NCBI RefSeq assembly: GCF_011492945.1
Contig: NZ_CP045119.1
Span: forward strand, 3,472,001 to 3,536,000
Length of the DNA: 64,000 nt
Source: Rubrobacter tropicus
GTDB taxonomy: Bacteria > Actinomycetota > Rubrobacteria > Rubrobacterales > Rubrobacteraceae
Direction: 5' to 3'
Part shown: positions 657 to 27,676 of the stretch, one piece after another
How the letters are laid out: each line of letters begins with the position of its first letter
How positions within the stretch are numbered: the stretch's first letter is position 1
Notes under the pieces: generated by a model
The model's database searches: none
Told to the model about the DNA's origin: nothing
The model's input: the letters and a program-made list of their open reading frames with translations, nothing else
Position numbers and translations under genes: made by a program

Positions 657-1493
657 GTGAACGGGAAGGGTCGAGACATACCCGTCTGCATCACCGGCAT
701 GCACCGGTCGGGCACGTCGTCCGCGGCCCAGCTCCTGTACCGCTGCGGCGTGTACCTCGGGGACGAGAGCGAGCTCTTCGCCGCGGGGCCGGCCAACCCG
801 GACGGCTACTGGGAGAACAGCCGGTTCGTCTCGATCAACAACCGCGTCTTCGAGGCCCACAGGGGCGGCTGGGACCTCCCCCCCCACCTCGAAGAGGGTT
901 GGCAGGACTCCGAGAAGATGGCGCCCATAAAGGCGGAGGCCAAGGAGCTCGTCAGGCGGTTCGAGGGCAGCGGGGTCTGGGGCTGGAAAGACCCGCGCAG
1001 CAGCCTTACGATGCCGCTCTGGCTGGATCTGCTCCCGGAAATGAAGGTCGTCATTTCCCTTAGAAACCCTCTGGAGGTCGCCCTCTCGCTCCGCAAGCGG
1101 GGCAATTCCTCGCTCGCCTTCGGTCTGAAATTGTGGACGGAATACAGCCAGCGGCTGCTCGCCGCGTTGCCGGCCGACCGATACATAGTCACCCATTACG
1201 GGGCGTACTTCTACCGGCCGCAGGACGAGTTGCGGCGCGTCCTCGACTTTCTGGGCGTTCATGCCTCGGGCCAACTCATCGCCCACGCCCGCTCGACCTC
1301 CCTCAAGGGGCTGCGCCACCACAGCGTCGCGACCGACGAGCTGCGGGATCTCGAAGTCGCCCCGCCGGAGATGTACGACCTTTACGTGCGGATGTGCCGC
1401 GAGGCCGACTTCGACCCCGACAACCCGGCCCCCGTTACCGGGAGCGTCCTCTCCGGGGAACTCTCGGAGAAGAAAGGGAGCCCGTCCGCGTAA
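657..1493 (+). CDS. Sulfotransferase family protein
   Basis: A 278-residue protein. Residues about 8-25 contain CITGMHRSGTSSAAQLL, the 5'-phosphosulfate-binding loop of PAPS-dependent sulfotransferases. About 140 residues in, VVISLRNPLEVALSL matches the 3'-phosphate-binding motif. GWKDPRSS lies between them, as in the bacterial carbohydrate sulfotransferase branch. No signal peptide is seen, so it should act in the cytoplasm on a nucleotide- or lipid-linked glycan. The start is GTG with a poor ribosome site; no better in-frame start was found. A TATAAT-like hexamer at about 577-582 could serve as its -10. It is the first of several sulfotransferase modules in this locus; the acceptor is unknown. 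Confidence 0.88.
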   Translation: MNGKGRDIPVCITGMHRSGTSSAAQLLYRCGVYLGDESELFAAGPANPDGYWENSRFVSINNRVFEAHRGGWDLPPHLEEGWQDSEKMAPIKAEAKELVRRFEGSGVWGWKDPRSSLTMPLWLDLLPEMKVVISLRNPLEVALSLRKRGNSSLAFGLKLWTEYSQRLLAALPADRYIVTHYGAYFYRPQDELRRVLDFLGVHASGQLIAHARSTSLKGLRHHSVATDELRDLEVAPPEMYDLYVRMCREADFDPDNPAPVTGSVLSGELSEKKGSPSA

Positions 1494-2096: not shown

Positions 2097-4688
2097 TTGC
2101 GGGTAATCGCGATACTCGCCGCTTACAACGAGGAACGGTTCATAGCCCCGTGCCTGGATCACTTCGCCGCGCAGGGCGTCGAGACGTACCTTTTGGACAA
2201 CGAATCCACGGACCGGACGGTCGAGATCGCCGAGCGGTACCTGGGGCGGGGTCTGATCGGTATCGAGTCGTTTCCCCGCGAGGGTGTCTTCGACCTGACC
2301 GCGCAACTCGGGCGAAAAGAGGAGCTGGCCCTCGAGCTGGGAGCCGACTGGTTTATCCACGCGGACCCTGACGAGGTGAGGCTGCCGCCGAGGTCCGACA
2401 AGACCCTGGCCGAGGCGCTCGCCGGGGTGGACGGGCTCGGCTACGACGCCGTGAACTTCGTGGAGTACGCGTTCGTCCCAACCAAGGAAGAGCCGAACCA
2501 CGATCACCCCGAGTACCAGCGGACCATGAGGCACTACTACCCTTTCCTGCCGAGGTTCCCGCACCGGCTCAACGCCTGGAAGCGGCAACCCGAGAGGGTG
2601 GACCTGTCCTCGTCGGGCGGACACAGGGTGGAGTTCCCGGGGTTGCGCGCGTACCCGGAGCCGTTCAAGATGCGCCATTACCCGTTCCTGAGCGCCGAAC
2701 ACTTCGTCGAGAAGTACGCCGGCAAAGATTACGACGCCGCGGAACTGCGAACCGGAAAGCACGGCTGGCGCGCTCGCGTGGACGCGCGAAAGATTCAACT
2801 TCCGTCACAGTCCGAGTTGAGCGTGTACGCCTCCGACGACGCGCTGGACCTCTCCAACCCGAGAACGCAACACGTCGGTGAGGACTGGACCGCGCCGCGT
2901 AAGGGCCTCCCCGTGATCGTTGGAGGATGCCACCGCTCCGGCACCTCGCTCGTACGCAGGATGCTCGACGCCCACTCCCGCATCCACTGCGGCCCTGAGG
3001 TCAAGTTTTTCAGGGACTTTTTTGGCGACTACGCGGAAGACCCGCTCCGGCACATACGCTTCGCGACCACGGCCCGCCACATGTTACCGGAGCAGGACTT
3101 GCTCGAAGAGTTCGGGGGAGCCTTCGTGCGCTCTCAGGAGAGGGCCGCCTCCCGGGCGGGCAAGCCGCGCTGGGCGGACAAGAACCCTGAGAACGTCCTT
3201 TACCTGAGACAGTGGACCCACCTCCTCGGAAGACGGTGGGTCTTCGTGCACGTGGTCCGAAACCCTCTCGACACGCTGGCCTCGATCAAGGAGGCCCGCT
3301 TCCCGCTCACCATACCGCCGGACCTGGAATCCCGCATAGAGCTCTACAAGCGCTACACGCGGGTCGGGGCCAAGTTCGGCGACCGTCACCCCGCGTACTA
3401 CTACCGGATCGTCTACGAGCGGCTGGTCGAGGACCCGGAAGGCGTGCTCGCCGACCTCATGGACTGGCTGGAAGAGGATTTCGAGCCCGCGCAGCTCGCC
3501 TTCAACAGCGCGGAACGCGAAAGAGGGTTGGAAGACCCGAAAATCCGGCAGACCACCGCGGCCCACACGGACAGCGTCGGACGCTGGAGAAAGGTGCTCA
3601 CGCAGGAGGAGGCCGTCCAGATCGCCCGCGAGTGCGCCCCACTGTGGCACAGGGTCTCCGGCGAGAGGCTGGCCGACCCGTCGGGCAACGGATCTCGCCC
3701 CCCGAAAACCATGCTGCCGCGCCGCATCGCGTCCCGGCTGAGATCGAAGCTCTACTCTTGGAAGGACCGGAGCAGAATCGGCGAACCGGGTGAAGAGGGC
3801 CGCGCTCCGACACCCTTCATCGTGGGCGCCGGCCGCTCGGGGACGACGCTGCTGCGGCTGATGCTCGACGCCCACCCCGACCTCGCCATACCGCCCGAGA
3901 CACACTTCATCCCGGAGGTGTCGCGGGCGTGCGGAAAAGCCCTGGATAACTCCGGCGACCCGCGCCGGGTCTTTCTCGAAACGGTAACTGCGCACCGCAG
4001 GTGGGAGGATTTCAAGCTGGAGAAGCGCCTGCTGGCGGAGAGGATCGCCGCGATAGAGCCCTTCGACCTGGGCCAGGCGCTGCGCGCTTTCTACGGGCTT
4101 TACGCGCAGAGGTTCGGCAAGCCGCGCTGGGGCGACAAGACGCCGCCCTACGTGCGGAACATGGGGCTGGTGGGCGGTCTGCTCCCGGAAGCCCGGTTTC
4201 TGCACGTGATCCGTGACGGCCGGGACGTTGCGCTCTCGAGCATGGGCCTGTGGTTCGGACCGGGGTCCGTAGAGGAAGCCGCCAGGCGCTGGCAGTCCGC
4301 CATCCGGGAGTCGCGGCGGCAAGCGGAAGACCTGCCCCACTACCTCGAAGTCCACTACGAGGACCTGGTGACGGACACGGAGGCCACGCTCAAGGGCGTC
4401 TGCGACTTCGTGGACCTCCCCTGGAACCCCATCATGCTCGAATACCACGAGACGGCCCAAAAGCGCATGGACGAGATGCGCCGGGACGTAACCCTGCCGG
4501 ATGGGGAGACCGTCGTCAGCGGCGAGCAACGCACGGGCATCCACGCCCTGACCAACCGCCCCCCCCAGTCGGACCGCATCGGCCGCTGGAAGACCGGGAT
4601 GGCCGAAGGGGACCGGGAAACGTTCGAAGGCATCGCGGGAGAGACGCTGAAAGACCTGGGCTACGAGAGCGGGTTCCGGAAGCAATGA
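2097..4688 (+). CDS. Three-domain fusion: family 2 glycosyltransferase + two sulfotransferase domains
   Basis: An 863-residue protein. Residues 1-250 are a GT2-type domain: LRVIAILAAYNEERFIAPCL, then LLDNESTDRTVEIAERYL and WFIHADPDEVR (DPD in the metal-binding position). About residues 270-525 form a first sulfotransferase domain (VIVGGCHRSGTSLVRRMLDA; VFVHVVRNPLDTLASI). About residues 572-863 form a second (FIVGAGRSGTTLLRLMLDA; FLHVIRDGRDVALSS). Both sulfotransferase copies keep the P-loop-like 5' site and the RNP/RDG 3' site, so both look active. The open frame extends upstream to 1653, but that part is antisense to the coiled-coil gene; TTG 2097 with GGGAGAACG upstream is the likely start. 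A single chain that adds and sulfates sugars is inferred, not shown. Confidence 0.88.
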   Translation: MRVIAILAAYNEERFIAPCLDHFAAQGVETYLLDNESTDRTVEIAERYLGRGLIGIESFPREGVFDLTAQLGRKEELALELGADWFIHADPDEVRLPPRSDKTLAEALAGVDGLGYDAVNFVEYAFVPTKEEPNHDHPEYQRTMRHYYPFLPRFPHRLNAWKRQPERVDLSSSGGHRVEFPGLRAYPEPFKMRHYPFLSAEHFVEKYAGKDYDAAELRTGKHGWRARVDARKIQLPSQSELSVYASDDALDLSNPRTQHVGEDWTAPRKGLPVIVGGCHRSGTSLVRRMLDAHSRIHCGPEVKFFRDFFGDYAEDPLRHIRFATTARHMLPEQDLLEEFGGAFVRSQERAASRAGKPRWADKNPENVLYLRQWTHLLGRRWVFVHVVRNPLDTLASIKEARFPLTIPPDLESRIELYKRYTRVGAKFGDRHPAYYYRIVYERLVEDPEGVLADLMDWLEEDFEPAQLAFNSAERERGLEDPKIRQTTAAHTDSVGRWRKVLTQEEAVQIARECAPLWHRVSGERLADPSGNGSRPPKTMLPRRIASRLRSKLYSWKDRSRIGEPGEEGRAPTPFIVGAGRSGTTLLRLMLDAHPDLAIPPETHFIPEVSRACGKALDNSGDPRRVFLETVTAHRRWEDFKLEKRLLAERIAAIEPFDLGQALRAFYGLYAQRFGKPRWGDKTPPYVRNMGLVGGLLPEARFLHVIRDGRDVALSSMGLWFGPGSVEEAARRWQSAIRESRRQAEDLPHYLEVHYEDLVTDTEATLKGVCDFVDLPWNPIMLEYHETAQKRMDEMRRDVTLPDGETVVSGEQRTGIHALTNRPPQSDRIGRWKTGMAEGDRETFEGIAGETLKDLGYESGFRKQ

Positions 4689-6032: not shown

Positions 6033-6869
6033 TTGAGGGACAGCGAGATCGTAGAGAAAATAGAGAGTTTCCCGAGGTGGCACTACCGCTTCGACCTCGG
6101 CGGGCACAAGACGCCCATCTACGACAGCAAGGTTGCGGTGCGCCACCGCAACCGCGCCCTTCACTTTTTCGACCCGATAGTCGAGTTGTTCGGCGGCTCA
6201 CTCAAGGGCAAGCGCGTGCTGGACCTCGGCTGCAACGCCGGGTGGTGGTCTTTGCGCGCTATCAACGCGGGCGCGGATTACGTGCTCGGCGTGGACGGCA
6301 GACGGATGCACGTGGAACAGTCGGAGTTCGTCTTCGATGTCAAGAGCGTCGACAAGGACCGCTACGACTTTGTCGAAGCCAACCTCTTCGACCTGGATTT
6401 CCGAAAGTTCGGCGAGTTCGACATAGTCCTGTGCCTCGGACTCCTGTACCACATCTCGAAGCCCGTCGACCTAATGGAGCGCATAAACCCCGTGAGCACG
6501 GATCTGCTCGTGGTGGACACCGCGATCTCACCCGCCAAGCGCTCCATCTTCGAGGTGCGCCGGGACAGCCTGGAAGAGGCGCGCGACGCCGTGGACTACG
6601 AGTTCGTCCTGGTGCCGAGCGCGCGGGCCGTCCACGACCTGGCCTCCCAATTCGGCTACAGAACGATTACGCTCAAGCCAGATTTCCGCAACCTCAAAGG
6701 TTCACCCGACTACCGGGGCGCAAACGATTATCGTAAGGGCCTGCGCCGGGCCTTCCTCTGCTCCAAAAAGACCGACCTCTCCGGCCTGTCGGCCGAGATC
6801 GAGCCGCTGCCCGAGGCGCCGCGGAGCTTCCTGCGGGAGGCCTGGCGCAACGAGTCGTTCGGCAACTAG
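6033..6869 (+). CDS. Class I SAM-dependent methyltransferase
   Basis: A 278-residue protein. Motif I VLDLGCNAGWWSLRAINAGA (about residues 62-81) binds SAM, the acidic strand-2 end is VLGVDGRRMH, and FDIVLCLGLLYHISKPVDLM is the motif IV/post-IV region. The N-terminal WHYRFDLGGHKTPIYD resembles the CmoB-like (DUF1698) group, but in a polysaccharide locus a sugar or lipid-carrier methyltransferase is more likely than a tRNA enzyme. The start is TTG 6033, with GGAGG eight bases upstream. The gene is transcribed alone, after a 230-base gap holding no other recognisable feature. Confidence 0.85.
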   Translation: MRDSEIVEKIESFPRWHYRFDLGGHKTPIYDSKVAVRHRNRALHFFDPIVELFGGSLKGKRVLDLGCNAGWWSLRAINAGADYVLGVDGRRMHVEQSEFVFDVKSVDKDRYDFVEANLFDLDFRKFGEFDIVLCLGLLYHISKPVDLMERINPVSTDLLVVDTAISPAKRSIFEVRRDSLEEARDAVDYEFVLVPSARAVHDLASQFGYRTITLKPDFRNLKGSPDYRGANDYRKGLRRAFLCSKKTDLSGLSAEIEPLPEAPRSFLREAWRNESFGN

Positions 6870-6889: not shown

Positions 6890-7020
6890 TCACCGCCGCC
6901 GGAACGTCGCCGTATACTTCCCGTAGTCGACCGGGACGACGATGGCGTGGCCCGCGGCGCGGCCGTCCGACCAGGAGCGGAAGACGTAGCCCTGGCCGTC
7001 CTTCTGCCGGTTCGCTTGCG
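6890..7020 (-). pseudogene. Remnant of the 3' end of the sugar dehydrogenase gene
   Basis: The reverse strand encodes QKDGQGYVFRSWSDGRAA and VDYGKYTATFRRR then a stop, matching the last 45 or so residues of the protein encoded at 7928-10057 (QKDGQRYVFRSWSDGRAA, VDYKKYTATFQRR). A run of about 35 bases, ending aagacgtag, is identical in both copies; the rest has diverged moderately. There is no start or upstream domain. It appears to be a leftover of a duplication; the intact copy lies beyond the DUF433/DUF5615 pair. Confidence 0.75.
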
Positions 7021-7047
7021 TGGATGCCGGGTGGGGTCCAGGTTGAG

Positions 7048-7401
7048 CTACAGGAAGTCCAGGGTGTAGGGACCGAAGCTCTCGGGGCGGTTTGCGTTCT
7101 TGTCCACCCAGCGTTTCAGGGCGTGTGCGATTCTCCCGGGCCGGTTGTTGGGTAGCTTGCGGCCGACTACGAGCACCCCGCGGTGGCTTTCGCCGGCCCT
7201 GTAGAACTCCAGTGTGAGCGCGCGAAAGTCGTCGCGGTTGCGGGTGACGAACACCATCTCTTCTCTGGCCGAGAAGCGCAACTGTTCCCTGTCGGTGAGG
7301 CCGAGCCGTCCGAGTTCGTGCACGCTGGCGGCGTCGATGTCCAGGCCGCGTGAGATCTCCGCCGCCTTCGGCGGAAGGTCTTCGTCGAAGAGAAACCTCA
7401 A
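7048..7401 (-). CDS. DUF5615 PIN-like protein (toxin-like partner)
   Basis: A 117-residue protein, MRFLFDEDLPPKAAEI at the start, with VHELGRLGLTDREQL and MVFVTRNRDDFRAL. These are the DUF5615 hallmarks: an early Asp/Glu pair and a later NRDDF acidic cluster as in PIN-fold nucleases. It overlaps the upstream DUF433 gene by 4 bases (ATGA), the usual order for this pair. Family context says RNase toxin of a type II-like module; activity has rarely been shown. Confidence 0.85.
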   Translation of the reverse strand: MRFLFDEDLPPKAAEISRGLDIDAASVHELGRLGLTDREQLRFSAREEMVFVTRNRDDFRALTLEFYRAGESHRGVLVVGRKLPNNRPGRIAHALKRWVDKNANRPESFGPYTLDFL

Positions 7402-7844
7402 GAACTTTCGCGACGCCCGGCTTCATTGCCCCGGTCTGGCCGCATGAATGGGTGCTCTCGCCACAGACTCTCCGGCGTCCAACGCTCTTCCTTTTCGAGG
7501 CGGGCGTCTATCTCTTCCGGGTAGATCTCGTAGTAGCCGAGGGCGGACGAGAGCTGGACCCCGGTGAGCCACGGATAACAGGCCTTCAACTCCTCGAAAT
7601 CTTCGCCGACCTCGCGGTACTGCCCGACGATCTCCCACACGTCGACGCCGGTGCCCGCCACCACAGCCCGCCGGCCCGTCGCGCCGTCCATGAACACTAT
7701 TCCCGGCACCCGGCGCATCCGCAAGGCCTCGCGCAAGAGGGAGACCGCAACCTCCGTAAAACCAGCGCCCTGCAACCTCATCTCGCGCTCGATCTCCGCC
7801 TCCAACGCCCCCGGAAGCCGTATCCCTCGCGCCTTCGTAGCCAC
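7398..7844 (-). CDS. DUF433 protein (antitoxin-like partner)
   Basis: A 148-residue protein. Residues about 5-45 look like a ribbon-helix-helix-type DNA-binding arm (IRLPGALEAEIEREMRLQG, FTEVAVSLLREALRMR). The C-terminal half is DUF433: GRRAVVAGTGVDVWEIVGQY, LKACYPWLTGVQLSSALGYY. DUF433 proteins are predicted winged-helix antitoxins paired with DUF5615. The start is GTG 7844 with AAAGGTGAGAAG upstream. Direct repeats in the promoter just upstream fit autoregulation. Confidence 0.85.
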   Translation of the reverse strand: MATKARGIRLPGALEAEIEREMRLQGAGFTEVAVSLLREALRMRRVPGIVFMDGATGRRAVVAGTGVDVWEIVGQYREVGEDFEELKACYPWLTGVQLSSALGYYEIYPEEIDARLEKEERWTPESLWREHPFMRPDRGNEAGRRESS

Positions 7845-10057: not shown

Positions 10058-10166
10058 CTTGAATCCTCCTGGTCTCAAACTGCTTCGGCGCAGACGGGCA
10101 GCCCGGCACGAACCACACTATGCACGAAGTATACGGAGCGCCCCCCGGTCCCGGACGTGTCCGCTC

Positions 10167-10224: not shown

Positions 10225-11312
10225 CTATTGGCTGTTGTTCTTTTCCGTGTAGCCTAGTCGCTGGAGCAGGGGCCCCGCCTCCCGCTCGAAGATGCGCCGG
10301 TCGCTTCCGGTGAAGGCCTCTTTCCAGTCTCCCGCCACGCCCTTTCTGAAGAAGGAGGAGGGGTCCTCCTCCCCGCGGCTCCTGCCCCGGGAGAGCTTCT
10401 CGAAGCTGGCGGCGTTCACGCAGTGGCCGGCTCCTCCCTCGTCCGCGCCCAGAAAACGCAAAAGACGCGCCATCTCGGCCTCCGGTCGAATCAGGAGATC
10501 CTCGTAGCGGACTTCGGCGTAGCAGTCCCCGAACAGCTTTGGGCCGTCTTCGACGGTCCTGCCCACCCTGGCGTTCCAGTCGGCGGCGAGCTTTCGGAGG
10601 CGGTCATCCTCGAAGACGCCCTCGCCCGAACCACGCTCCCCTGGTTTCCTGCCGAAGTTGCGGGCGTGGTGGGCGGCGGAGACGGCCGTGTCCCGGCCGT
10701 CGCGGATGATGTGAATTAAGCGGGCTTCGGGGTAGACGTGTGAGATCTCCTCGACCGTCTCGGGGGTGAGCAGGGGGGACTTGTCCCCGACGAGCCTTTT
10801 TCCGGTCTTGGCGAGCTCCCCCTGGAGAAAGTAGTCGACGGCCATGCGGGCGAGGTTGTCCAGGTGCTCTCGCGGATCGTCGTTGCGGCTCCAGACGGAG
10901 CGCTCGATCCAGAGCCTCAGGTACTCGGCCTCGCGCACGGCGTAGAGCAGCGAACTCGGGGGCCGCATGGCGTCCGACTTGACGAGGCTCTTCTGCCGCC
11001 AGGCCGCGCCGAAGAACCTGCCCTCCCCCCTGCACAGGATCTCCGGGTGCGCGTCCAGCATCCGCATGAGCCACGTCGTCCCGGACTTCTGGTAGCCAAC
11101 CACGAAGAACACGGGCGTCTCGACCGGGGCGCCGGCCCCCTCGCCCGGGTTCGGGCGAGCACCTTTCTCAGGGCGGAGATCTCGGCGTTCTTGGCCGCGA
11201 TGGAGCGCCTCTCCCCCCGGCCGCTCCTTGAGCGGGCGGCGTTCAACCCGCGTTCGACGAGCGCCTTCGCGGCCCGCAGCCCGTTCGAGATCCCTGCCCG
11301 GGGGCCGCTCAA
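10225..11312 (-). CDS. Sulfotransferase family protein, probably frameshifted near its N-terminus
   Basis: The main open frame (10225-11112, 295 residues from GTG) begins VFFVVGYQKSGTTWLMRMLDA, the PAPS 5'-phosphosulfate loop. RLIHIIRDGRDTAVSA is the 3'-phosphate site, and FFRKGVAGDWKEAFT is the late conserved stretch (KG.xGDW) of sulfotransferases. The GTG has no ribosome site. Immediately upstream, in another frame, an open stretch from TTG 11312 (8 bases after the rmlD stop) reads ISNGLRAAKALVERGLNAA and then AAKNAEISALRKVLARTRA with strong GC3 bias. A one-base shift near 11,130-11,165 (which holds a GGGGG run) would join them into one protein of about 360 residues, like the sibling at 15514-16515. 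Either a sequencing error or a real lesion. Confidence 0.75.
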
Positions 11313-11319
11313 ACCGGCC

Positions 11320-12165
11320 CTATCCGCGGGCCGCGCCGGCCGCGGCCTCCCGCTCCAGGTAGTCGGCCAGAGCCTCCTGCCAGGGACGGAGGGTCGGGCC
11401 GCCGAGGGCGGAGAGGACCCCGTTCGCCGGGCGGGCCGCCGGCAGCGGGTACTCGGAGCCCGGGATGGGGACCAGCTCCGTCTCGACGCCGGAGAGGCGG
11501 AAGATCTCGCGCGTGAACTCGTACCACGAGCAGGAGCCTGCGTTGGTGAGGTGGTAGAGGCCGTACCCCTCTTCTTCTATTATCCCGGCGATACCCTCGG
11601 CGAGGTCGCGCGCGTATGTCGGGGAGACGAACTCGTCGTCTTTTACCTTGAGCACGTCGCGTTCTCCGGCCACCCTGAGCATGGTCCGCACGAAGTTGTG
11701 GCCTTGGCCGTAGACCCCGGCCGTCCTGACGACGGTCCAGCGGTTGGTAAGCCGCATCACGTACTCCTCGCCGGCGAGCTTGGTTCTGCCGTAGGCGCTG
11801 ATCGGGCGCGCCGCGTCGAACGGCTCGTAGGGCCGCTCCTGTCCGCCGTCGAAGACGTAGTTGGTGCTCACGTGCAGAAGCGAGGCCCCCCGCTTCTCGC
11901 AGGCCCGCGCCAGGTTGCGCGGCCCGAGGGCGTTGACGGCGTAGGCCGCCTCCGTCTCCTCCTCGCAGAGGTCCACGTTCGTGAAGGCCGCCGCGTTGAC
12001 CACGACCCCGGGCTCGTGCTCCCCGACGGCCCCGTCCACGGCCCGGGCGTCCGCTATGTCGAGGTCCCGGCGGGAGAGGGCTACTACCTCGTGCCCGCGC
12101 CCGGGCAACAGCTCCGCGAGATCCAGGCCAAGCTGCCCGCCGCTCCCCGTCACGAGCACCTTCAA
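11320..12165 (-). CDS. rmlD: dTDP-4-dehydrorhamnose reductase
   Basis: A 281-residue protein. MKVLVTGSGGQLGLDLAELL is the NADPH-binding Rossmann glycine loop. VVVNAAAFTNVDLCEEE, LHVSTNYVFDG and SAYGRTKLAGEE (the SDR Tyr-x3-Lys) are characteristic of RmlD. It performs the last step of dTDP-L-rhamnose synthesis, reducing the 4-keto group. The other three genes (rmlB, rmlA, rmlC) form a separate operon at 25,159-27,676. The start is TTG (12165). It is followed 8 bases later by the sulfotransferase reading frame, implying co-transcription. Confidence 0.93.
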   Translation of the reverse strand: MKVLVTGSGGQLGLDLAELLPGRGHEVVALSRRDLDIADARAVDGAVGEHEPGVVVNAAAFTNVDLCEEETEAAYAVNALGPRNLARACEKRGASLLHVSTNYVFDGGQERPYEPFDAARPISAYGRTKLAGEEYVMRLTNRWTVVRTAGVYGQGHNFVRTMLRVAGERDVLKVKDDEFVSPTYARDLAEGIAGIIEEEGYGLYHLTNAGSCSWYEFTREIFRLSGVETELVPIPGSEYPLPAARPANGVLSALGGPTLRPWQEALADYLEREAAAGAARG

Positions 12166-12982: not shown

Positions 12983-14326
12983 CTATTTTTCGCCCGCGAG
13001 GTCGGCGTAGACCTCCTCCAGCTCCCCGGCGTACTCGCCGACGGTCTTTACGGGCCCGATGCCGGCCTTGAGCCTCTCCAGGAGGCCCGGCTCGTCGACG
13101 AGCCGCCGCAACTGCCGCGCGAGGTCCCCGACGTCGTCGAGCCGGAAGAGCAGCCCGTTGTCTTCGTGCCGGACGAACTCGGAGATCCCGCCAAGGTCGG
13201 TGGCGACGACGGGCGCCCCGGCGGCGAGTGCCTCGAAGACGACGCCCGGCCCGTTCTCGTACCAGCGGGACGGCACGACGAGCACGTCCGTCCCGGCGAG
13301 CACCCGCCCAAGCTCCCCACCCGGGAAGAGTCCCGGCAGGCTTATCCTCCGGTCGCCGCCCGCGAGCCGGCGCAGTTCTTCCACGTATCTCTCGTAGCCC
13401 TCCCCGCCGCCGTGGACCGCGAGCGTGGCGTCGAGCTCGCGGGGCAGCATCCCGAAGGCCTTGATGAGCAGGTCGGGACCCTTGTGCGGCGCCAGCGTCC
13501 CCACGAACCCGACCCGCAGCGTCGGCGACGGGCGCCGGCGGGCGCGGGCCTCTCGCAGCCGGCCGGCGTCGATCCCGTACGGCGAGACCAGGGTCTTCCC
13601 GCCCGCCCCGACGCCGTTGCGCGAGAGGAGGTCCCTCGTAAGACTGGTGTAGGCGAGGAAGCGGTCCACCCCTTCCATCTCCTCCCGGATGCGGGCCGGT
13701 CGCTCCCGCACGTCGGCCACCTGCCGCAGAGCCCCGGAGGAGCGGGCGAGGGGCGTGCGGGAGAGAAAGCCCGCGGCCCGAACCGCCGCGCCGGACAGGT
13801 TGGCCCTCTCGCTGATGCGCGGGTCCGGGTTGCGGGACGCGATGCACCGGACGCAGTGGTGGGTCTCGGGGCCCTCGCACATTGCGCCGTCATGGCGGCG
13901 CAGGTCCACGACGGGGCAGACCGTCCAGAAATCCGCGGCCGTGAAGACCACTGGCAGGCCGAGCTGCTTGAAGGCCGGCACCACGCTCGCGGAGAGCCCC
14001 TGCAGGTGCATGGCGTGGACGACGTCGGGCCCGACCTCCAGCGCGTACTCCCGCGTCAGGGCCGCCATCTCGCCGTTCTCGTAGTTGAGGCGGTAAGGGC
14101 GCGAGGGGCCCTCCTCCGGCCGTCCAACCCTCCGGACCGGGACGCCTTCGTACTCGTAGTCCTCGGTCTCGTGGGGCCGGATGCCGCCCGGGAGGCTCCG
14201 CTTCGCGGCGAGGACGAAAGGCTCGTGGCCCCTGGCCTTCAGCTCCTTCGCCAGCCCGAGCGTCACGAGCTCGACGCCGGCGCGGCTCTCGGGGAAGAAC
14301 TGGTGGGCGGCGAAGAGAATCCTCAT
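12983..14326 (-). CDS. Glycosyltransferase, GT4 family (GT-B fold)
   Basis: A 447-residue protein. MRILFAAHQFFPESRAGVE is a GT4 N-terminus. DVVHAMHLQGLSASVVPAF is the acceptor-domain core, and VGFVGTLAPHKGPDLLIKA opens the nucleotide-sugar domain. VVPSRWYENGPGVVFEALAA carries the E-x7-E region. A Cys-containing insert (CEGPETHHCVRCIASRNPD, about residues 145-170) is seen in some actinobacterial GT4 enzymes and might bind a metal. Sugar and linkage cannot be read from sequence. The ribosome site is weak (ATG 14326). Confidence 0.88.
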   Translation of the reverse strand: MRILFAAHQFFPESRAGVELVTLGLAKELKARGHEPFVLAAKRSLPGGIRPHETEDYEYEGVPVRRVGRPEEGPSRPYRLNYENGEMAALTREYALEVGPDVVHAMHLQGLSASVVPAFKQLGLPVVFTAADFWTVCPVVDLRRHDGAMCEGPETHHCVRCIASRNPDPRISERANLSGAAVRAAGFLSRTPLARSSGALRQVADVRERPARIREEMEGVDRFLAYTSLTRDLLSRNGVGAGGKTLVSPYGIDAGRLREARARRRPSPTLRVGFVGTLAPHKGPDLLIKAFGMLPRELDATLAVHGGGEGYERYVEELRRLAGGDRRISLPGLFPGGELGRVLAGTDVLVVPSRWYENGPGVVFEALAAGAPVVATDLGGISEFVRHEDNGLLFRLDDVGDLARQLRRLVDEPGLLERLKAGIGPVKTVGEYAGELEEVYADLAGEK

Positions 14327-14575: not shown

Positions 14576-15517
14576 TCAGACGCCCTTGCCGAGGAACGCG
14601 TTCAGGCGGGCCGGCAACCCGTCGCGCCTCGCCGCCAGGTACAGGCCCAGCTGGGACGGGACGGCGTACCCGACGGCGAGGGGCAGGGCCCACCATCCAG
14701 ACCCCTCGTCCAGCAGGAGGAGGCGGCGGGTGAGATGGGCGGAGGCGAGTAGGGTGTTTTTGAGGAGAACGAGGAGGCTCGGGACGGGGGCGAGGTCGAA
14801 GAGGTCGAGCAGGAGCAGGCCCTCCGCGTAGTGGCGGCGCAGGTTGTAGAGGGGACCGCGTTCGTGGGAGTGGACGACGGCCGAGCGGGGCTCGTAGACG
14901 AGCTTATGGCCCGACTCGACGGCCCTCTTGCCCCAGCGTAGATCCTCCCCGAAGCCGGTCTGTCCGAAGGGGATCTCCTCCCATACCTCGCGGCGCAAGC
15001 AGGAGCTGACGTTGTCGAAGAGGGCGAGCGCGCGGCGTTCGGGCGGCGCCAACGTCTCGTACGTTCCCCCGGCCGACTGCACCCGGCGGGCGGGGCCCGC
15101 GGTCGGGGCGTTCTCGACGAGGACGCGGGCAAGCGGGCCGCTGTCGGGGCGCGGTACCTGGCGCCCGTAGACCCCGGCGACGGAAGGATCCGCTTCGAGG
15201 TCCTCGACCATCGAGGCGAGCCAGAGGTTGTCGAGCGGCACGGCGTCCTGCACCAGCAGGGCTACGAAGTCCCCCTTCGAGAGGGAGACCCCGAGGTCGC
15301 GGGCGGCGCCGTGGTCGAAAGTGGAGGACGCCGTGCGATGCACATGGGCGCCCGACCGTCCCGCCATCTCTACCGTCCCGTCCGTCGAGCCGGAATCGAG
15401 GACGAGGACCTCGAAGTCGAAGGCCGTTCTCTGGGAGAAGACGGCGCGCAGGGTATCTTCGAAGGCGGGTCCGGCGTTGAGGGTGAGGAGGACGACGGAG
15501 GCCTTTGGCCGGTTCAA
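14576..15517 (-). CDS. Glycosyltransferase family 2 (rhamnosyltransferase-like)
   Basis: A 313-residue protein. ASVVLLTLNAGPAFEDTL and FEVLVLDSGSTDGTVEMA form the GT-A N-terminus; DFVALLVQDAVPLDNLWL carries the acidic QDA motif in the DxD position, typical of rhamnosyltransferases; GFGEDLRWGKRAVESGH is the catalytic ED region. A hydrophobic C-terminal part could associate with the membrane. TTG start, overlapping the stop of the upstream sulfotransferase by TTGA, so translation is coupled. With rml genes nearby, dTDP-rhamnose is a plausible donor. Confidence 0.88.
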   Translation of the reverse strand: MNRPKASVVLLTLNAGPAFEDTLRAVFSQRTAFDFEVLVLDSGSTDGTVEMAGRSGAHVHRTASSTFDHGAARDLGVSLSKGDFVALLVQDAVPLDNLWLASMVEDLEADPSVAGVYGRQVPRPDSGPLARVLVENAPTAGPARRVQSAGGTYETLAPPERRALALFDNVSSCLRREVWEEIPFGQTGFGEDLRWGKRAVESGHKLVYEPRSAVVHSHERGPLYNLRRHYAEGLLLLDLFDLAPVPSLLVLLKNTLLASAHLTRRLLLLDEGSGWWALPLAVGYAVPSQLGLYLAARRDGLPARLNAFLGKGV

Positions 15518-16515
15518 CTCCCGGTACTCTTCCCTTCGGCGTAGAACCTCTCTATAACGGGTGCGGCCATCTCCCCGACGAGGGCGGCCTGATCCGGGGT
15601 GAGGTCCTCGCGCCAGCCGCCGGGCGTGCCCTTCCTGTAGAACTTGCCGGCGCCCTTCTCCTCCTTCGGCACGTTCTCCCAGGCGTGCTTCGCGACGACG
15701 CGGTCGAGATCCGCGCCACCGGCCGGGATGCCAAGGTCGGAGTAGACGCGGCGCATCGTGGCGGGGGTGTCGGCGACGAGGTCCTCGTAGCGGACCAGCG
15801 TCTTCTTGCCCGTGTGGGCTTCGAAGGCGCGGAGGGCGGCGCCGACGCCCTGCATGTAGGTGCGGGTTCTCAGGCGGACGAAGGCCTCCGGCTTGCGGTC
15901 GGCGAGCGCCCGGCGGCCGACGGCGCCACGGCCGAAGCGCTCTCGGTGCCAGCCGCCCTCGCCGGCCGCGTCCAACATCGAGGCCACGACGTCCCTGGGG
16001 TCCCGGATCAGCACCACCATCCGGCTCTCCGGCAGCGCCTCCATCAGGATGGGCGCACCCACGGAGCCGTTCGGCTCCTTCACGACCAGGTACTCGTCAG
16101 GCTTCAGCTTCGGGTTCGAGTAGCCGGCGCCGTCGAGCACGAAGTTCCTGACCGAGTGGGTCCATCCTTTTCGTATCGGGTCGCCCATCACGTAGTCGGC
16201 GGAGCGGAGGTTCTCCTTGGGAGCGCGAGAGTAGAAGTCCCCGAACAGAGCGCCCACCATCGGCTCCTCCCAGACTTTATGCTTCGGCATTTCGCCCATC
16301 ATGCGCCGCAGCCACGTGCTGCCGCTGCGCCCCGAGCCGAAGATCCAGACGACGTTGGCAGGGTTCACGCCGCCCGCGCGCCCTTCCGCGAGCCTGACCC
16401 GGCGGCGCCTGCCGGAGAACCTGCGCCGGAGCTCGACGAGCGTCCGGCTCTTTTTCGCCGCTGGGCGCAGGAGGTCGCCGAGCATTCGGGCCCGGTTCCT
16501 GAGGGCTTCAAGCAC
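15514..16515 (-). CDS. Sulfotransferase family protein
   Basis: A 333-residue protein. After a basic N-terminal extension of about 50 residues, NVVWIFGSGRSGSTWLRRMM is the PAPS 5'-phosphosulfate loop and SRMVVLIRDPRDVVASMLDA the 3'-phosphate site. GKFYRKGTPGGWREDLTPDQ is the late conserved region. The N-terminal extension resembles that predicted for the frameshifted sibling ending at 11312. GTG start without a clear ribosome site; an internal ATG about 10 codons later is an alternative. Co-transcribed with the following GT2 gene. Confidence 0.87.
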   Translation of the reverse strand: MLEALRNRARMLGDLLRPAAKKSRTLVELRRRFSGRRRRVRLAEGRAGGVNPANVVWIFGSGRSGSTWLRRMMGEMPKHKVWEEPMVGALFGDFYSRAPKENLRSADYVMGDPIRKGWTHSVRNFVLDGAGYSNPKLKPDEYLVVKEPNGSVGAPILMEALPESRMVVLIRDPRDVVASMLDAAGEGGWHRERFGRGAVGRRALADRKPEAFVRLRTRTYMQGVGAALRAFEAHTGKKTLVRYEDLVADTPATMRRVYSDLGIPAGGADLDRVVAKHAWENVPKEEKGAGKFYRKGTPGGWREDLTPDQAALVGEMAAPVIERFYAEGKSTGS

Positions 16516-19665: not shown

Positions 19666-19730
19666 GCGTGCTGGAATTCCCGGGCCGAGGGCTTACACTA
19701 CCGGGTGGCGTTGGCGAAGCAGGGGAACAT

Positions 19731-20576
19731 TTGACCACCTACACCTCCGGAGAGAGAAAGAGCATCGCGGGCGGGTTCTTCGACGGGCTCGCGACGTTCT
19801 GGCGCAAGCGGTGGTTGCTCCGGTACTTTATCCAGCGGCAGGTTACCCGCAGCTACAAGCGGTCTTACCTTGGGATCTCGTGGATACTATTGAGCCCGCT
19901 GGTCTGGGTCTTCTTTCTCACGCTCATCTTCTCTGATGCCGTCGGGATCAGGGTAAGGATCGTCGATGACCACCCGAACCTAAACTTCGGGCTCTACCTG
20001 TACTGCGGCCTCTTGCCGTTCCTCGCCTTCTCGGAGGCGATGAACAAGGGCATGAACAGCATCAGGAGCAGCTCCGGGCTGGTGCAGAAGGTCATCTTTC
20101 CGCTCGAGTTGTTGCCCTTCACGAACGCCATGGCGTCCATGGTCGACAAGTTCTTCGGGGCGGGGGCGCTCGTTATAGCGGTGGTCTTGTCTGGGATGAG
20201 CCTTCACTGGACGGCCCTGCTGCTGCCCGCCGTGATCGCGCTGCAGGTGCTCTTTATCCTGGGGCTCACGTATTTTATGTCCGTCTTCGGCACCTACCTG
20301 CCGGACCTGGGTGAGATCATGCGGCCCGTGATCCGGGGCATGTTCTTCCTAACGCCCATCATCTGGACGCCGGACAGGCTGCCGGAGTCGATCCGATGGG
20401 TCGTCGACTACAACCCGCTGGCGTACCTGGTGAACGCCTACAGGGAGATCTTGCTGTTCGGCAACCCGCCGGGCGGGCTCGCGACCCTCTACTTCACGTT
20501 GTTCTCCGTGGCGCTCTTCGTCGCGGGGTTCGCGTTTTTCAACCGGGTCAAGTGGGGGTTCGCGGACAGGCTATGA
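19731..20576 (+). CDS. wzm: Polysaccharide ABC exporter, permease (Wzm type)
   Basis: A 281-residue membrane protein of the ABC-2 family: FIQRQVTRSYKRSYLGISWI is the conserved cytoplasmic entry helix, followed by six hydrophobic segments and the late PLAYLVNAYREILLFG motif. It partners with the following Wzt-like ATPase to export a lipid-linked polysaccharide. The start is TTG 19731 (AGGGG upstream); an in-frame start at 19668 would add 21 residues from within a repeat. The 3' end overlaps the ATPase gene as ATGA. The symbol is a functional-type label. Confidence 0.9.
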   Translation: MTTYTSGERKSIAGGFFDGLATFWRKRWLLRYFIQRQVTRSYKRSYLGISWILLSPLVWVFFLTLIFSDAVGIRVRIVDDHPNLNFGLYLYCGLLPFLAFSEAMNKGMNSIRSSSGLVQKVIFPLELLPFTNAMASMVDKFFGAGALVIAVVLSGMSLHWTALLLPAVIALQVLFILGLTYFMSVFGTYLPDLGEIMRPVIRGMFFLTPIIWTPDRLPESIRWVVDYNPLAYLVNAYREILLFGNPPGGLATLYFTLFSVALFVAGFAFFNRVKWGFADRL

Positions 20577-21886
20577 GCTCGGTCGTCTCCCTACAAGGCG
20601 TTGGTAAGCGATACAAGGTCTCCTCCAGCCGCTCCTCCTGGTTCAAGGACATCTTCCGCCCGGGCAAGACCAGCACCCACGAGTTCTGGGCCGTCGAGGA
20701 CATAGACCTCGAGATAGAGCGGGGCGCCACTTTGGGCATCCTGGGGCGCAACGGGGCCGGCAAGAGCACGCTGCTGCGCATGATCTCCGGCGTCTCGCAG
20801 CCGACCACGGGCACGGTCGAGGTGAGGGGCAGGCTCGCGGCGATCTTCTCGACGGGGGCCGGCTTCAACCCGGAGTTCACGGGCCGCGAGAACGTGATGC
20901 TGAACGGCCTGATCCTTGGCATAGAACGCGACGAGATGCTCGCCCGCATGGGCGATATAGAGGCCTTTGCCGACATCGGCGAGTTCATGGACCAGCCCAT
21001 AAAGACTTACTCAAGCGGGATGCGCTCCCGTCTGGGCTTCGCCGTCGCGGTGAACGTCGAGGCCGAGGTGCTGGTTTTGGACGAGGCCCTCTCCGCGGGT
21101 GATGCGGCCTTCAAGAAAAAGGCGCTGCAGCGGATGTACGACCTGCGCGACTCGGGGACGACGGTCCTCTTCGTCTCCCACAGCCTCGGCATGGTGCAGA
21201 GGTTCTGCACCGAGGCGATCCTGCTCCACAAGGGCCACCTCGTCACCTCAGGCGAACCCGAAGAGGTGGTGAACAGCTACCGCGAGCTGCTGGAGAACTC
21301 CGAAGACGGCAAGAAGGCCCGCCAGGACGAGAAGGAGCGGCAACTGGAGTACGCCGTGGACCACGAGGACGAGGACGACACGCCTTTCAGGAACGGTCCG
21401 CCGGCCCCGGCGGCCGGGGGAAAGGTTCCCACCGGCGAGGCGACGGTCCTCGGGGCGGAGATCCTGGACGGGGACGGCAACCCCGCCCGCGCGGTCGCCT
21501 CGGGCTCGGAGGTCACGGTAAGGGTGCGCCTCCAGTACGGGCGGGATGAGGAGAAGAGTTCCGCGGTCGTCACCGTGCGCAACGCGGCCGGCCTCCCCGT
21601 CTTCTCGACGACCACGGGGGACGGGGGGGCCACCCTGGGGCCGCGCTCGCTGGGCGAACGCGCCTCGGTAGACTTCGCCTTCGGGGTCCCTTTGCGTCCG
21701 GGGACCTACACCCTCGACACGGCCGTCCTCTCCCCCAGGGACGGCGGAACGTGCCTGAGCCGGGCCGAGGCCGCGGCCACCCTGGAAGTCGTCCCGCCAG
21801 AAGACGGGCATCCGGTTCGGGGCCTGGTGGACCTTCCTGCCGAGGTCAGGGTCCTCGACCCGGCCGAACGGGAAGCCCCCGGCTGA
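20573..21886 (+). CDS. wzt: Polysaccharide ABC exporter, ATPase (Wzt type) with C-terminal glycan-binding-like domain
   Basis: A 437-residue protein. Walker A GILGRNGAGKSTLLRMI, signature YSSGMRSRLGFAVA, Walker B EVLVLDEALSAGD and H-loop FVSHSLG lie in residues 1-240. An acidic linker (DEKERQLEYAVDHEDEDD) leads to a beta-rich C-terminal domain (about 290-430) like Wzt_C, which in characterised systems recognises the capped end of the glycan. That makes export dependent on a terminal modification; here a sulfate or methyl cap would be a testable candidate. It overlaps wzm by 4 bases. Confidence 0.92.
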   Translation: MSSVVSLQGVGKRYKVSSSRSSWFKDIFRPGKTSTHEFWAVEDIDLEIERGATLGILGRNGAGKSTLLRMISGVSQPTTGTVEVRGRLAAIFSTGAGFNPEFTGRENVMLNGLILGIERDEMLARMGDIEAFADIGEFMDQPIKTYSSGMRSRLGFAVAVNVEAEVLVLDEALSAGDAAFKKKALQRMYDLRDSGTTVLFVSHSLGMVQRFCTEAILLHKGHLVTSGEPEEVVNSYRELLENSEDGKKARQDEKERQLEYAVDHEDEDDTPFRNGPPAPAAGGKVPTGEATVLGAEILDGDGNPARAVASGSEVTVRVRLQYGRDEEKSSAVVTVRNAAGLPVFSTTTGDGGATLGPRSLGERASVDFAFGVPLRPGTYTLDTAVLSPRDGGTCLSRAEAAATLEVVPPEDGHPVRGLVDLPAEVRVLDPAEREAPG

Positions 21887-21891
21887 GGGCG

Positions 21892-22905
21892 GTGCCCCCC
21901 CGCGTCACGGTGGTCGTCCCAAACTGGAACACCAAAGAGTTCCTGGGCCCTTGCCTGCGCTCCCTCCGGGGCCAGACGTTCCGGGACTTCGAGACGGTGG
22001 TGGTCGACGGCGCCTCCACAGACGGGTCCGTGGAGTTCGTGGGCGAGAATTTCCCAGAAGCCCGGACCATCGCCCTGCGAGAGAACCGGGGTTTCTCCGG
22101 CGCGGTCAACGCCGGGATAGAGGCGTCGGAGGCGGAGTTCGTGGTGCTCCTCAACAACGACACGGAGCAAGACCCGGGCTGGCTCGGCACCCTCGTGCGG
22201 GCCGCGGAACGTCACCCCGCGGCCGGCCTCTTCGCCAGCAAGCTCGTGGATTTCCGGGATCGGAACCGGCTCGACGGGGCCGGGGACGCGCTCAGGCGGA
22301 GCGGGCTCCCGTACAGGCTCGGGCACGGGGAGGTCGACCGCGGACAGTTCGAGGTCGAGGAGTTCGTCTTCGGGGCGTGCGCTGCGGCGGCCCTCTACAG
22401 GCGTTCGGTCTTCGACGAGGTCGGGCTCTTCGACGAGGATTTCTTCGCCTACTGCGAGGACGGGGACGTGAGCTTCCGCGCCCAGCTCGCGGGCCACCGT
22501 TGCCTCTACGCGCCTGGCGCGGTCGTCTACCACGTCGGCGGCGCCTCAACCGGCGGCAAGCGGAGCGCCACGGCCACCCGCCTCGGCACCCGCAACGGCC
22601 TGCTCCTGCTCGTCAAGAACCTGCCGGCTCCGCTCGCGTGGCGCTTCCTTCCCTCTATAGTGCTCGGCCAGATCTCACGCCTCCTCGTCGTCTCCCTCTC
22701 CCCCGGCGGGCTCAGGGCCCACCTCGAAGGGCTCGCCGGCGCCTGGCGCCTCCTGCCGAAGATGAGGGAGAAGCGGCGGAAGATACAGAACACGCGCCGC
22801 GTCTCAGACGCCTACCTGCGGGAGCTTCTGGTCCGGTCCTCCCGCCGGGCGGCGGAGAGCCGGCGGCGCCGGATCAAAGACTCCCTGCAAGCCGGGATCC
22901 GGTGA
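21892..22905 (+). CDS. Glycosyltransferase family 2
   Basis: A 337-residue protein starting PRVTVVVPNWNTKEFLGPCL. ETVVVDGASTDGSVEFV and EFVVLLNNDTEQDPGW carry the GT-A Asp residues (NND as DxD equivalent); FDEDFFAYCEDGDVSFRAQL is the catalytic ED region. The C-terminal third is basic and amphipathic. This is the group containing rhamnosyltransferases of the RfbF/WbbL kind. GTG start at 21892, 5 bases after the wzt stop with GAGGG upstream; the 3' end overlaps the next GT2 gene by GTGA. Confidence 0.9.
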   Translation: MPPRVTVVVPNWNTKEFLGPCLRSLRGQTFRDFETVVVDGASTDGSVEFVGENFPEARTIALRENRGFSGAVNAGIEASEAEFVVLLNNDTEQDPGWLGTLVRAAERHPAAGLFASKLVDFRDRNRLDGAGDALRRSGLPYRLGHGEVDRGQFEVEEFVFGACAAAALYRRSVFDEVGLFDEDFFAYCEDGDVSFRAQLAGHRCLYAPGAVVYHVGGASTGGKRSATATRLGTRNGLLLLVKNLPAPLAWRFLPSIVLGQISRLLVVSLSPGGLRAHLEGLAGAWRLLPKMREKRRKIQNTRRVSDAYLRELLVRSSRRAAESRRRRIKDSLQAGIR

Positions 22906-25158: not shown

Positions 25159-25728
25159 CTAGTCCGCCCGGTAGACGGGAAGTGAGCCTTCCGGCATCCC
25201 GGCGAGCGGCGGGGCGGCGGCGTCCTTGCCCGAGAGGGTCGGGGCCTCGATGGGCCACTCGATACCTATCTCCGGGTCGTTCCAGAGGATCGAACCGTCG
25301 TGCTCGGGTGCGTAGTAGTCCGTGCATTTGTACGAGAACAGCGCGTCCTCGCCCGTGACCACGAAGCCGTGGGCGAAGTCCGGCGGGACCCAGAACTGGC
25401 GCTTGTTCTCGGCCGAGAGGGTTACCCCCGTCCAGCGGCCGAAGGTCGGGGAGCCGGTCCTGATGTCCACGGCGACGTCGAAGACCTCGCCCCGCAAGAC
25501 CGAGACCAGCTTGCCCTGGGGTTGCGGGTTCTGGAAGTGGAGGCCGCGCAGGACGCCGTGGGCCGAGAAAGAGAGGTTGTCCTGGACGAAGCCCAGCTCC
25601 GCTGCCGGGATGCCGAGGTCCTCGTAGCGGCGGCCGTTCCAGGTCTCCATGAAAAAGCCCCGGTCGTCGCCGAAGACTCTGGGCTCCAGGATCAGGACGC
25701 CGGGAAGGTCCGTCTCCAGCACGTTCAC
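25159..25728 (-). CDS. rmlC: dTDP-4-dehydrorhamnose 3,5-epimerase
   Basis: A 189-residue cupin. Conserved RmlC stretches: [39 protein letters not shown] (catalytic His in RGLHFQ), [32 protein letters not shown] and the Tyr region [19 protein letters not shown]. It epimerises C3 and C5 of dTDP-4-keto-6-deoxyglucose. GTG start overlaps the rmlA stop by GTGA. Confidence 0.95.
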
Positions 25729-26606
25729 GTTACGGGTCCCCCGTCTTCGAGGAGTTCCAGGAGGTACTGGCCGTAGTCGTTCTTCATCATCGGGGCGGCG
25801 AGAGATTCCAACTGCCCGGCGTCGATGTAACCCTTGCGGTAGGAGATCTCCTCGGGGCAGCCGATCTTGAGCCCCTGGCGCTGCTCGATGGTCTCTATAA
25901 AGTTGCCCGCCTGCTGCAACGACTCGTGCGTGCCGGCGTCGAGCCAGGCCATGCCGCGGCCCATGATCTCGACCCTTAGCTCATCGCGCTTCAGGTAATC
26001 CACGTTGACGTCCGTGATCTCGATCTCCCCCCGCGCCGACGGCTCCAGGTTCTCGGCCACGTCCAACACCCTGTTGTCGTAGAAGTAGAGCCCCGTCACC
26101 GCGTAGTGCGACCGCGGCTTCTCTGGCTTCTCCTCTATGGAGAGGACTCTTCCTCCGCCGTCGAACTCGACGACGCCGTACCGCTCGGGGTCCCTGACGT
26201 AGTAGCCGAAGACGGTGGCGCCGGCCCCGCCGCCGGACGCGCGCTCGAGCTGGTCGACGAACCCCTCGCCGTAGAAGATGTTGTCCCCGAGCACCAGGGA
26301 CACGTCGTCGCCTCCGACGAACTTCCGCCCCACGACGAAGGCGTCGGCCAGCCCTCTAGGCTCCGGCTGGACGGCGTACTCGAAGCTTATGCCCCATTGG
26401 GAGCCGTCGCCGAGCAGGTCCCGAAAGCGGGGCAAATCGTGCGGGGTGGAGATGACGAGGATCTCGCGGATGCCGGAGAGCATCAGGGTGGTGAGGGGGT
26501 AGTAGATCATGGGCTTGTCGTAGACGGGCAGGAGCTGCTTGCTGACGGCGTGGGTCAGCGGGTAGAGCCGCGTCCCCGACCCCCCCGCCAGCACTATCCC
26601 CTTCAA
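25725..26606 (-). CDS. rmlA: Glucose-1-phosphate thymidylyltransferase
   Basis: A 293-residue protein. [20 protein letters not shown] is the nucleotidyltransferase signature; [28 protein letters not shown] and ITDVNVDYL follow in RmlA order. It makes dTDP-glucose. The start is TTG 26606, overlapping the rmlB stop (TTGA) and giving the usual length; the frame is open further upstream but only inside rmlB. Confidence 0.95.
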
Positions 26607-27676
26607 GACCGCCCCCCGCCGAGCCCGAGCCGCTCCTGCCTGTAGCCGCGGGAGAGGACGCCCTCGCACCACTCCCGGTTCTCCAGGTACCAGCGCACCG
26701 TCTTCTCCATCCCGCTCTCGAAAGTCTCTTCGGGCGTCCATCCTAGCTCGCGCTCGATCTTGCCCGCGTCTATGGCGTAACGCCTGTCGTGCCCCGGCCT
26801 GTCCTCGACGAAGGTGATGAGAGATGCGTGCGGCGCGTGCGGGGAGTCCGGCACGAGCTCGTCGAGCAGGGCGCAGACCGTCTCGACGACCTCCAGGTTC
26901 GTCCGTTCGTTGTGCCCGCCGACGTTGTAGACCTCGCCCGGAACTCCCCCCTCCAACACCCGCTCGATGGCCCGGCAGTGGTCCACCACGTAGAGCCAGT
27001 CGCGAACCTGTCGGCCGTCGCCGTAGACCGGGAGCGGGCCGCCGCGAAGGGCGGTCAGGATCATGAGCGGTATAAGCTTCTCCGGGAAGTGGTAGGACCC
27101 ATAGTTGTTGGAGCAGTTGGTCGTGAGCACCGGCAGCCCGTAGGTGTGATGGTACGCCCGCACGAGGTGGTCCGAGGCCGCCTTCGAGGCCGAGTAAGGC
27201 GAGTTCGGCCTGTAAGGGCTCTCTTCGGTGAAGTATCCGGTGGCTCCGAGCGTCCCGTACACCTCGTCCGTCGAGACGTGCAAGAACCGGAAAGCGTCGC
27301 GCTCCGCGCCCTCGAGCGTCCGCCAGTGGTCGAGAACCGCATCCAGCAGCCCTTGCGTCTCGACCACGTTCGTCTGCACGAAGACGGCCGGACCGTCGAT
27401 GGAGCGGTCCACGTGCGACTCCGCGGCGAAGTTCACCACCGCCGCCGGCCGGTGCTCCGCCAGCAGCCCCCCGACAAGCTCCCTGTCCCCGATCCTCCCC
27501 TCCACGAACGCGTAGTCGGGGTCGTCCGAGACGGACGCGAGCGTCTCGGGGTTGCCCGCGTAGGTCAGGGCGTCCAGGTTGACGACCCTGAACCGCCCAA
27601 CCGTCTCAAGGACGAAGTTCCCCCCGATAAACCCGGCGCCGCCGGTGACGAGGACGGTGCGTTTGTGGTCTTCCAA
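26603..27676 (-). CDS. rmlB: dTDP-glucose 4,6-dehydratase
   Basis: A 357-residue extended [20 protein letters not shown] binds [34 protein letters not shown] (catalytic Thr-Asp-Glu) and [20 protein letters not shown] (Tyr-x3-Lys) are standard RmlB signatures. First gene of rmlBAC-PPOX-hydrolase. TTG start with AAGGAAGAA upstream, close to the rmlB length norm. Confidence 0.95.

Follow-up and report, generated by a model that had tools for sequence, protein, structure and literature searches.

A glycosyltransferase and two sulfotransferase domains in one reading frame of a Wzm/Wzt-dependent glycan cluster of Rubrobacter tropicus

The fused gene and its surroundings

The window, that is the whole stretch of 64,000 nucleotides of the Rubrobacter tropicus genome that was analysed, carries at 2097..4688 (+) a gene of 863 codons, open throughout from a TTG at 2097 to the stop at 4688 and with a GGAG placed 8 nt 5' of the start codon. 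Its product consists of a glycosyltransferase domain (GT, residues 1-264) followed by two sulfotransferase domains, termed here STa (residues ~268-520) and STb (residues ~569-862). In the Pfam scan the protein matches Glycos_transf_2 over one stretch (PF00535, E 1.9e-7, 31.6 bits against a curated cut-off of 23.3) and Sulfotransfer_3 over two separate stretches (E 5.8e-61, 206.9 bits, cut-off 27), and no kinase or methyltransferase domain is present; the Rfam scan found nothing. At the first junction, 2889..2897 (+), a few residues separate the native end of the GT (...GEDWTAP) from the start of STa (RKGLPVIVGG), and relatives consisting of the GT alone end at the residue where STa begins. The linker between the two sulfotransferase domains (residues 521-568, 3657..3800, +) is basic and contains MLPRRIASRLRSKLY, which may be a former N-terminus of STb.

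In this frame, codon position 3 has a G+C content of 0.78-0.93 over ~2100-4620 that passes both junctions without a break, the other two frames being lower; a scan of the two domain boundaries revealed no strong internal start with a ribosome site. Relatives of the gene are mostly split genes and neighbouring genes overlap, making a wrong merge possible, so that the single frame might be put down to two or three genes having been joined in error during sequencing or assembly. Such an explanation is highly improbable: it requires two independent errors, leaves the unbroken codon bias at both junctions and the native GT end kept right up to the junction to be accounted for, and concerns a genome assembled in 2 contigs in which the other long genes of the window are intact. 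A frameshift merging separate genes was likewise judged unlikely, given the position-3 G+C without a break. The sequence-only reading of this DNA, which had described one 863-residue polypeptide joining a GT-A domain to two sulfotransferases, is borne out by the open frame, the Pfam stretches and the codon composition, and the fused frame with three complete domains is confirmed as real.

The surrounding genes form an ABC (Wzm/Wzt) dependent glycan cluster, in which wzm, wzt and glycosyltransferases occur together and Wzt has a cap-binding Wzt_C domain (PF14524, 68.6 bits). Wzm, the ABC-2 transporter membrane subunit, is encoded at 19668..20576 (+), and the Wzt ATPase with its carbohydrate-binding Wzt_C domain, not fused to a GT, at 20396..21886 (+). 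Upstream of the fused gene, a separate sulfotransferase was identified by Pfam at 657..1493 (+), whose relatives adjoin STa in other loci, and downstream Pfam identified a methyltransferase (6033..6869, +), a further sulfotransferase (10225..11112, -) and RmlD of dTDP-rhamnose synthesis (11320..12165, -). The cluster continues with a GT4-type glycosyltransferase (12983..14326, -), a GT2 glycosyltransferase (14576..15517, -), another sulfotransferase (15514..16515, -), a second GT2 glycosyltransferase (21751..22905, +), an RmlA-like nucleotidyltransferase (25725..26741, -) and an RmlB-like nucleotide-sugar dehydratase (26603..27676, -). The glycan made by this cluster is, from its gene content, probably sulfated, of the rhamnose type and exported by Wzm/Wzt. 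The sulfate donor PAPS should be available, given two strong APS kinase genes in the genome.

Some minor features were observed in the same region. Three tandem sulfotransferase genes of the same cluster lie directly upstream of the window (L045:9279-12259), and between two sulfotransferase genes a short, strongly coiled-coil-like frame (1535-1798, -) may or may not be a gene. The frames at 6890-7426 (-) and 7928-10078 (-) have near-identical C-terminal ends, KDGQxYVFRSWSDGRAAxHxIVxPVDYxKYTATFxRR, and the shorter one may therefore be the remnant of a duplicated gene. Two small overlapping genes at 7048-7844 (-) have, by eye, the look of a toxin-antitoxin pair of the DUF433/DUF5615 type.

Predicted folds and active sites of the three domains

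The GT domain (2097..2888, +) is assigned to glycosyltransferase family 2, with a predicted GT-A fold and a metal-binding DxD, on the basis of Pfam, alignment, tree, and an AlphaFold2 model with its structural alignment. The motif D90-x-D92-E93 is invariant among the aligned relatives, and the model, which is weak (pLDDT 72), has the GT-A fold and finds its best structural match in WrtF (Z 16.6, rmsd 2.6 over 164 residues). AlphaFold2 was run on the GT and on STa as single domains. The model of STa (2898..3656, +) has a sulfotransferase fold (pLDDT 87.7) whose best structural matches are human TPST1/2 (TPST1, 5wrj: Z 24.0, rmsd 4.2 over 245 residues), and the fold of STb (3801..4682, +) is assigned by profile only, through a match at 1e-25 to solved tyrosylprotein sulfotransferases. 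The three folds proposed in the sequence-only reading were thus recovered by structure prediction for GT and STa, and by profile match for STb.

In STa the residues R280-S-G-T, E301, K362, R388 and S396 are invariant in an alignment of 16 sequences, and in STb the corresponding R580-S-G-T-T, E601, K681, R706 and S714 are invariant in one of 7 sequences; by analogy with the tyrosylprotein sulfotransferases, we take these to be the PAPS-binding and catalytic positions. Both domains can therefore be assigned to Sulfotransfer_3, TPST-like, the family profile being matched twice and a PAPS site being predicted in each. By solved fold or by sequence, both domains come closest to tyrosylprotein sulfotransferases and the sulfotransferase domains of OlsST/CurM, but these act on tyrosine or polyketides, and STa is ~16-22% identical to them. 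One copy is often degenerate in tandem enzyme domains, and STa or STb could in principle be non-catalytic, merely binding substrate or donor; this is improbable, however, as both retain every PAPS-site and catalytic-site position that is invariant in their clades. The two domains share 27% identity and fall into separate clades of the tree, STa with 17 rows (support 100/100) and STb with 8 rows (100/99), and are, judging from these sequences, anciently distinct and not the product of a recent duplication. The claims that both sulfotransferases are motif-complete and only distantly alike are therefore upheld, and their different clades would fit the further suggestion that they modify two different positions. 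Elsewhere in the genome (G000:C1:1532013-1534733) lie three STb-like sulfotransferases in tandem, with 36-39% identity to STb.

Split relatives, export genes and probable origin of the fusion

Relatives were collected from 15 loci in many phyla by a scan of genome contigs, plus one from a sampling of Chloroflexota. STa is a stand-alone gene in 16/16 of these loci, and no second case of all three domains in one frame was found among them. The GT, STb and STa adjoin in L026, L027, L029 and L031, and the GT and STa in L032, L035, L036 and L037, a divergent STb being present in L036; the frequent order in other phyla is wzm-wzt-GT-(STb)-STa. In L027, L029, L031 and L036, next to wzm/wzt, the parts are the same three as in the window and orthologous by tree, but they are separate genes, usually ordered GT-STb-STa, as opposed to GT-STa-STb in the window. 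In L027 the start of STb overlaps the stop of the GT (TAATG), and in L038 STb is in frame with the GT tail through a proline-rich linker and is followed by a separate STa. In three loci (L029:2923-5010, L032:1567-3660 and L037:5663-7795), ABC_tran, Wzt_C and a GT2 from the family of the window GT lie in a single frame. The GTs of these fusions form one clade (98/94), which occurs in Chlorobiota and Thermodesulfobacteriota; they share GT family and neighbourhood with the window protein, but are joined to the exporter ATPase and not to sulfotransferases. The possibility, raised in the sequence-only reading, that homologues are always split into separate genes holds for STa in all other loci, but not for the family of parts as a whole, in view of the GT-STb fusion of L038, the Wzt-GT fusions of L029, L032 and L037, and the window frame itself, which runs without a stop.

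Wzm/Wzt genes are near 8/8 loci with an adjacent GT and STa: in seven of the eight they are inside the 7 kb flank, and in the eighth, L026, they are ~11-12 kb away. No Wzm/Wzt was seen in the stretches read of four loci with STa only (L024, L028, L034 and L063), so the export link is restricted to the GT+STa module and does not extend to every STa. Sampling ~300 genomes in each of four other phyla yielded only one new STa, which points to a rare family of patchy distribution. Phage records contained no relatives, and plasmids no full-length one. This export link, the operons in which the parts are separate genes, and the indications of acquisition described below go beyond what the sequence-only reading had reported.

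GT-only relatives of 55-60% identity are found in the same bacterial family as the window, and the clusters in which they lie (L040, L042 and L043) have sulfotransferase, RmlD, GT or Wzm/Wzt genes in common with the window. In the tree, the window GT groups with the GTs of the family and is split from those of other phyla with support of 100/100. STa, on the other hand, has no other carrier among the 39 family genomes (38 relatives), nor among 296 genomes sampled from the phylum. Since the GT is native to the family and STa is absent from the relatives, the simplest account is probably that an STa-STb pair was acquired and became joined to a GT resident in the family. Loss in the relatives is also possible, because the family includes one weak, frame-disrupted relative of STb, on a short contig of G034.

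A proposed function in surface-polysaccharide sulfation

On these grounds, we consider it rather probable that the fused protein is a trifunctional enzyme of a Wzm/Wzt-dependent surface-polysaccharide cluster, adding a sugar and sulfating up to two positions of the chain end. Working in the cytoplasm, the GT-A domain would use a nucleotide sugar to extend a lipid-linked glycan, probably one containing rhamnose, by a sugar at its end; STa and STb, with PAPS as donor, would next sulfate two distinct hydroxyls of this sugar or of the adjacent one, all before the glycan is exported. The gene itself would combine a family-resident GT with a sulfotransferase pair that elsewhere shares an operon with wzm-wzt and a related GT. 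We infer the catalytic activity of the fused protein, its sugar donor and acceptor, the substrate shared by its enzymes, disulfation, where the protein acts and in what order the steps occur; the shared substrate is supported by the repeated fusion and adjacency of the parts, and the whole suggests that three cooperating steps attach a sulfated sugar to a surface polysaccharide that is exported. The two sulfotransferase domains could also act on two residues instead of disulfating one sugar. Three observations count against the trifunctional reading, namely that the window Wzm/Wzt genes are 15 kb from the fused gene and not in one operon with it, that the order of the parts differs from the GT-STb-STa usual elsewhere, and that in the four STa-only loci the stretches read contain no Wzm/Wzt.

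The trifunctional reading has two sub-cases, whose probabilities are contained in that of the whole and do not add to it. In one, to which we give slightly less than an even chance, a branch or repeat-unit sugar is added and sulfated, and neither the termination of the chain nor its export depends on it. This matches the role assumed for sulfotransferases of other polysaccharide clusters, namely the decoration of repeats (PMC11641403), and several further sulfotransferases in the cluster make heavy sulfation of the repeat likely; it leaves unexplained, however, why GT homologues are fused to the Wzt cap-binding domain. In the other, which we advance more tentatively and regard as rather doubtful, the GT adds a terminal sugar that STa and STb sulfate, whereupon chain growth stops, the Wzt C-terminal domain binds and export follows, sulfate replacing the known caps, which are methyl, (methyl)phosphate or Kdo (PMC9445017). 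Consistent with such a sulfate cap, GT homologues stand directly behind the Wzt cap-binding domain in L029, L032 and L037, every GT+STa locus is near Wzm/Wzt, no methyltransferase or kinase cap enzyme occurs among the Pfam-scanned genes of the limited flanks of L032 and L037, and WsaE offers the precedent of a capping methyltransferase joined to two GTs in one protein (PMC2943079). Against it, the window Wzt is not fused to a GT, the methyltransferases of the window cluster, such as that at 6033..6869, are rival enzymes that could make the cap, and the Wzt frames of L035 and L071 consist of the ATPase domain only in the piece read. Among the open-access literature matches listed, no clear case of a sulfated non-reducing end with ABC export was found. 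With the same reserve, a sulfated terminal sugar may be a new kind of export cap, whose parts are fused variously as Wzt-GT, GT-STb and GT-STa-STb.

If the exporter does read a sulfated chain end, sulfate would join methyl, methyl-phosphate and Kdo among the caps, and a test of the control of chain length and export outside the enteric models would be opened; this reading, which can be tested, would be of considerably greater importance if true. To our knowledge, the sulfated polysaccharides of bacteria are poorly understood, and assignments exist for very few of the sulfotransferases involved. The module described here draws attention to three enzymes, probably with a common substrate, that are available for expression and testing as a single chain.

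The fused protein is not a member of the WsaE or WbdD kind, since kinase and methyltransferase domains are both absent from it; WbdD, for its part, is not known to have a GT domain. WsaE of Geobacillus stearothermophilus, which contains a methyltransferase and two rhamnosyltransferases, is similar in being a multidomain protein that combines glycan-building GTs with a chain-end modifier in a Wzm/Wzt-dependent, rhamnose-rich cluster (PMC2943079). Compared by layout, however, WsaE methylates and has two GT domains, whereas the window protein has one GT followed by two sulfotransferases. WbdD of E. coli O9a is a kinase and methyltransferase chain terminator of an ABC-dependent pathway and resembles the window protein as a bifunctional modifier of the growing end, with a two-step modification in one protein (PMC3482155). 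It uses phosphate and methyl, in contrast to the sulfate predicted for the window protein, for which the role of terminator is a proposal.

No described GT-sulfotransferase fusion was found in the open-access literature. The suggestion that the layout was not previously known applies to the exact order GT-STa-STb, found once, but the fusion of a GT to a sulfotransferase as such is not unique to the window gene, and the other layouts met are GT2-GT2-ST (L042), ST-GT4 (L077, by eye) and ST-coiled repeat-GT2 (L029, L032, L035 and L037). The 978-aa frame at L042:4086-7019 combines GT2 domains with a sulfotransferase at its C-terminus, which is a relative of the stand-alone sulfotransferase at 15514-16515 of the window. 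In a member of the family, a 774-aa frame (L077:507-2828), read by eye, joins a sulfotransferase-like N-terminus to a GT4-like C-terminus, and is followed by a frame-disrupted STb relative. The large proteins at L032:4460-7483, L029:8694-13205, L037:8595-12500 and L035:7060-9567 begin with a weak sulfotransferase domain, continue with a repeated, coiled-looking 'RDGQI.xLNQ' stretch and end with GT domains, a layout that recalls the methyltransferase-coiled coil-GT terminators. Finally, at L065:8468-10864 a polysaccharide pyruvyl transferase domain precedes a fused GT relative.
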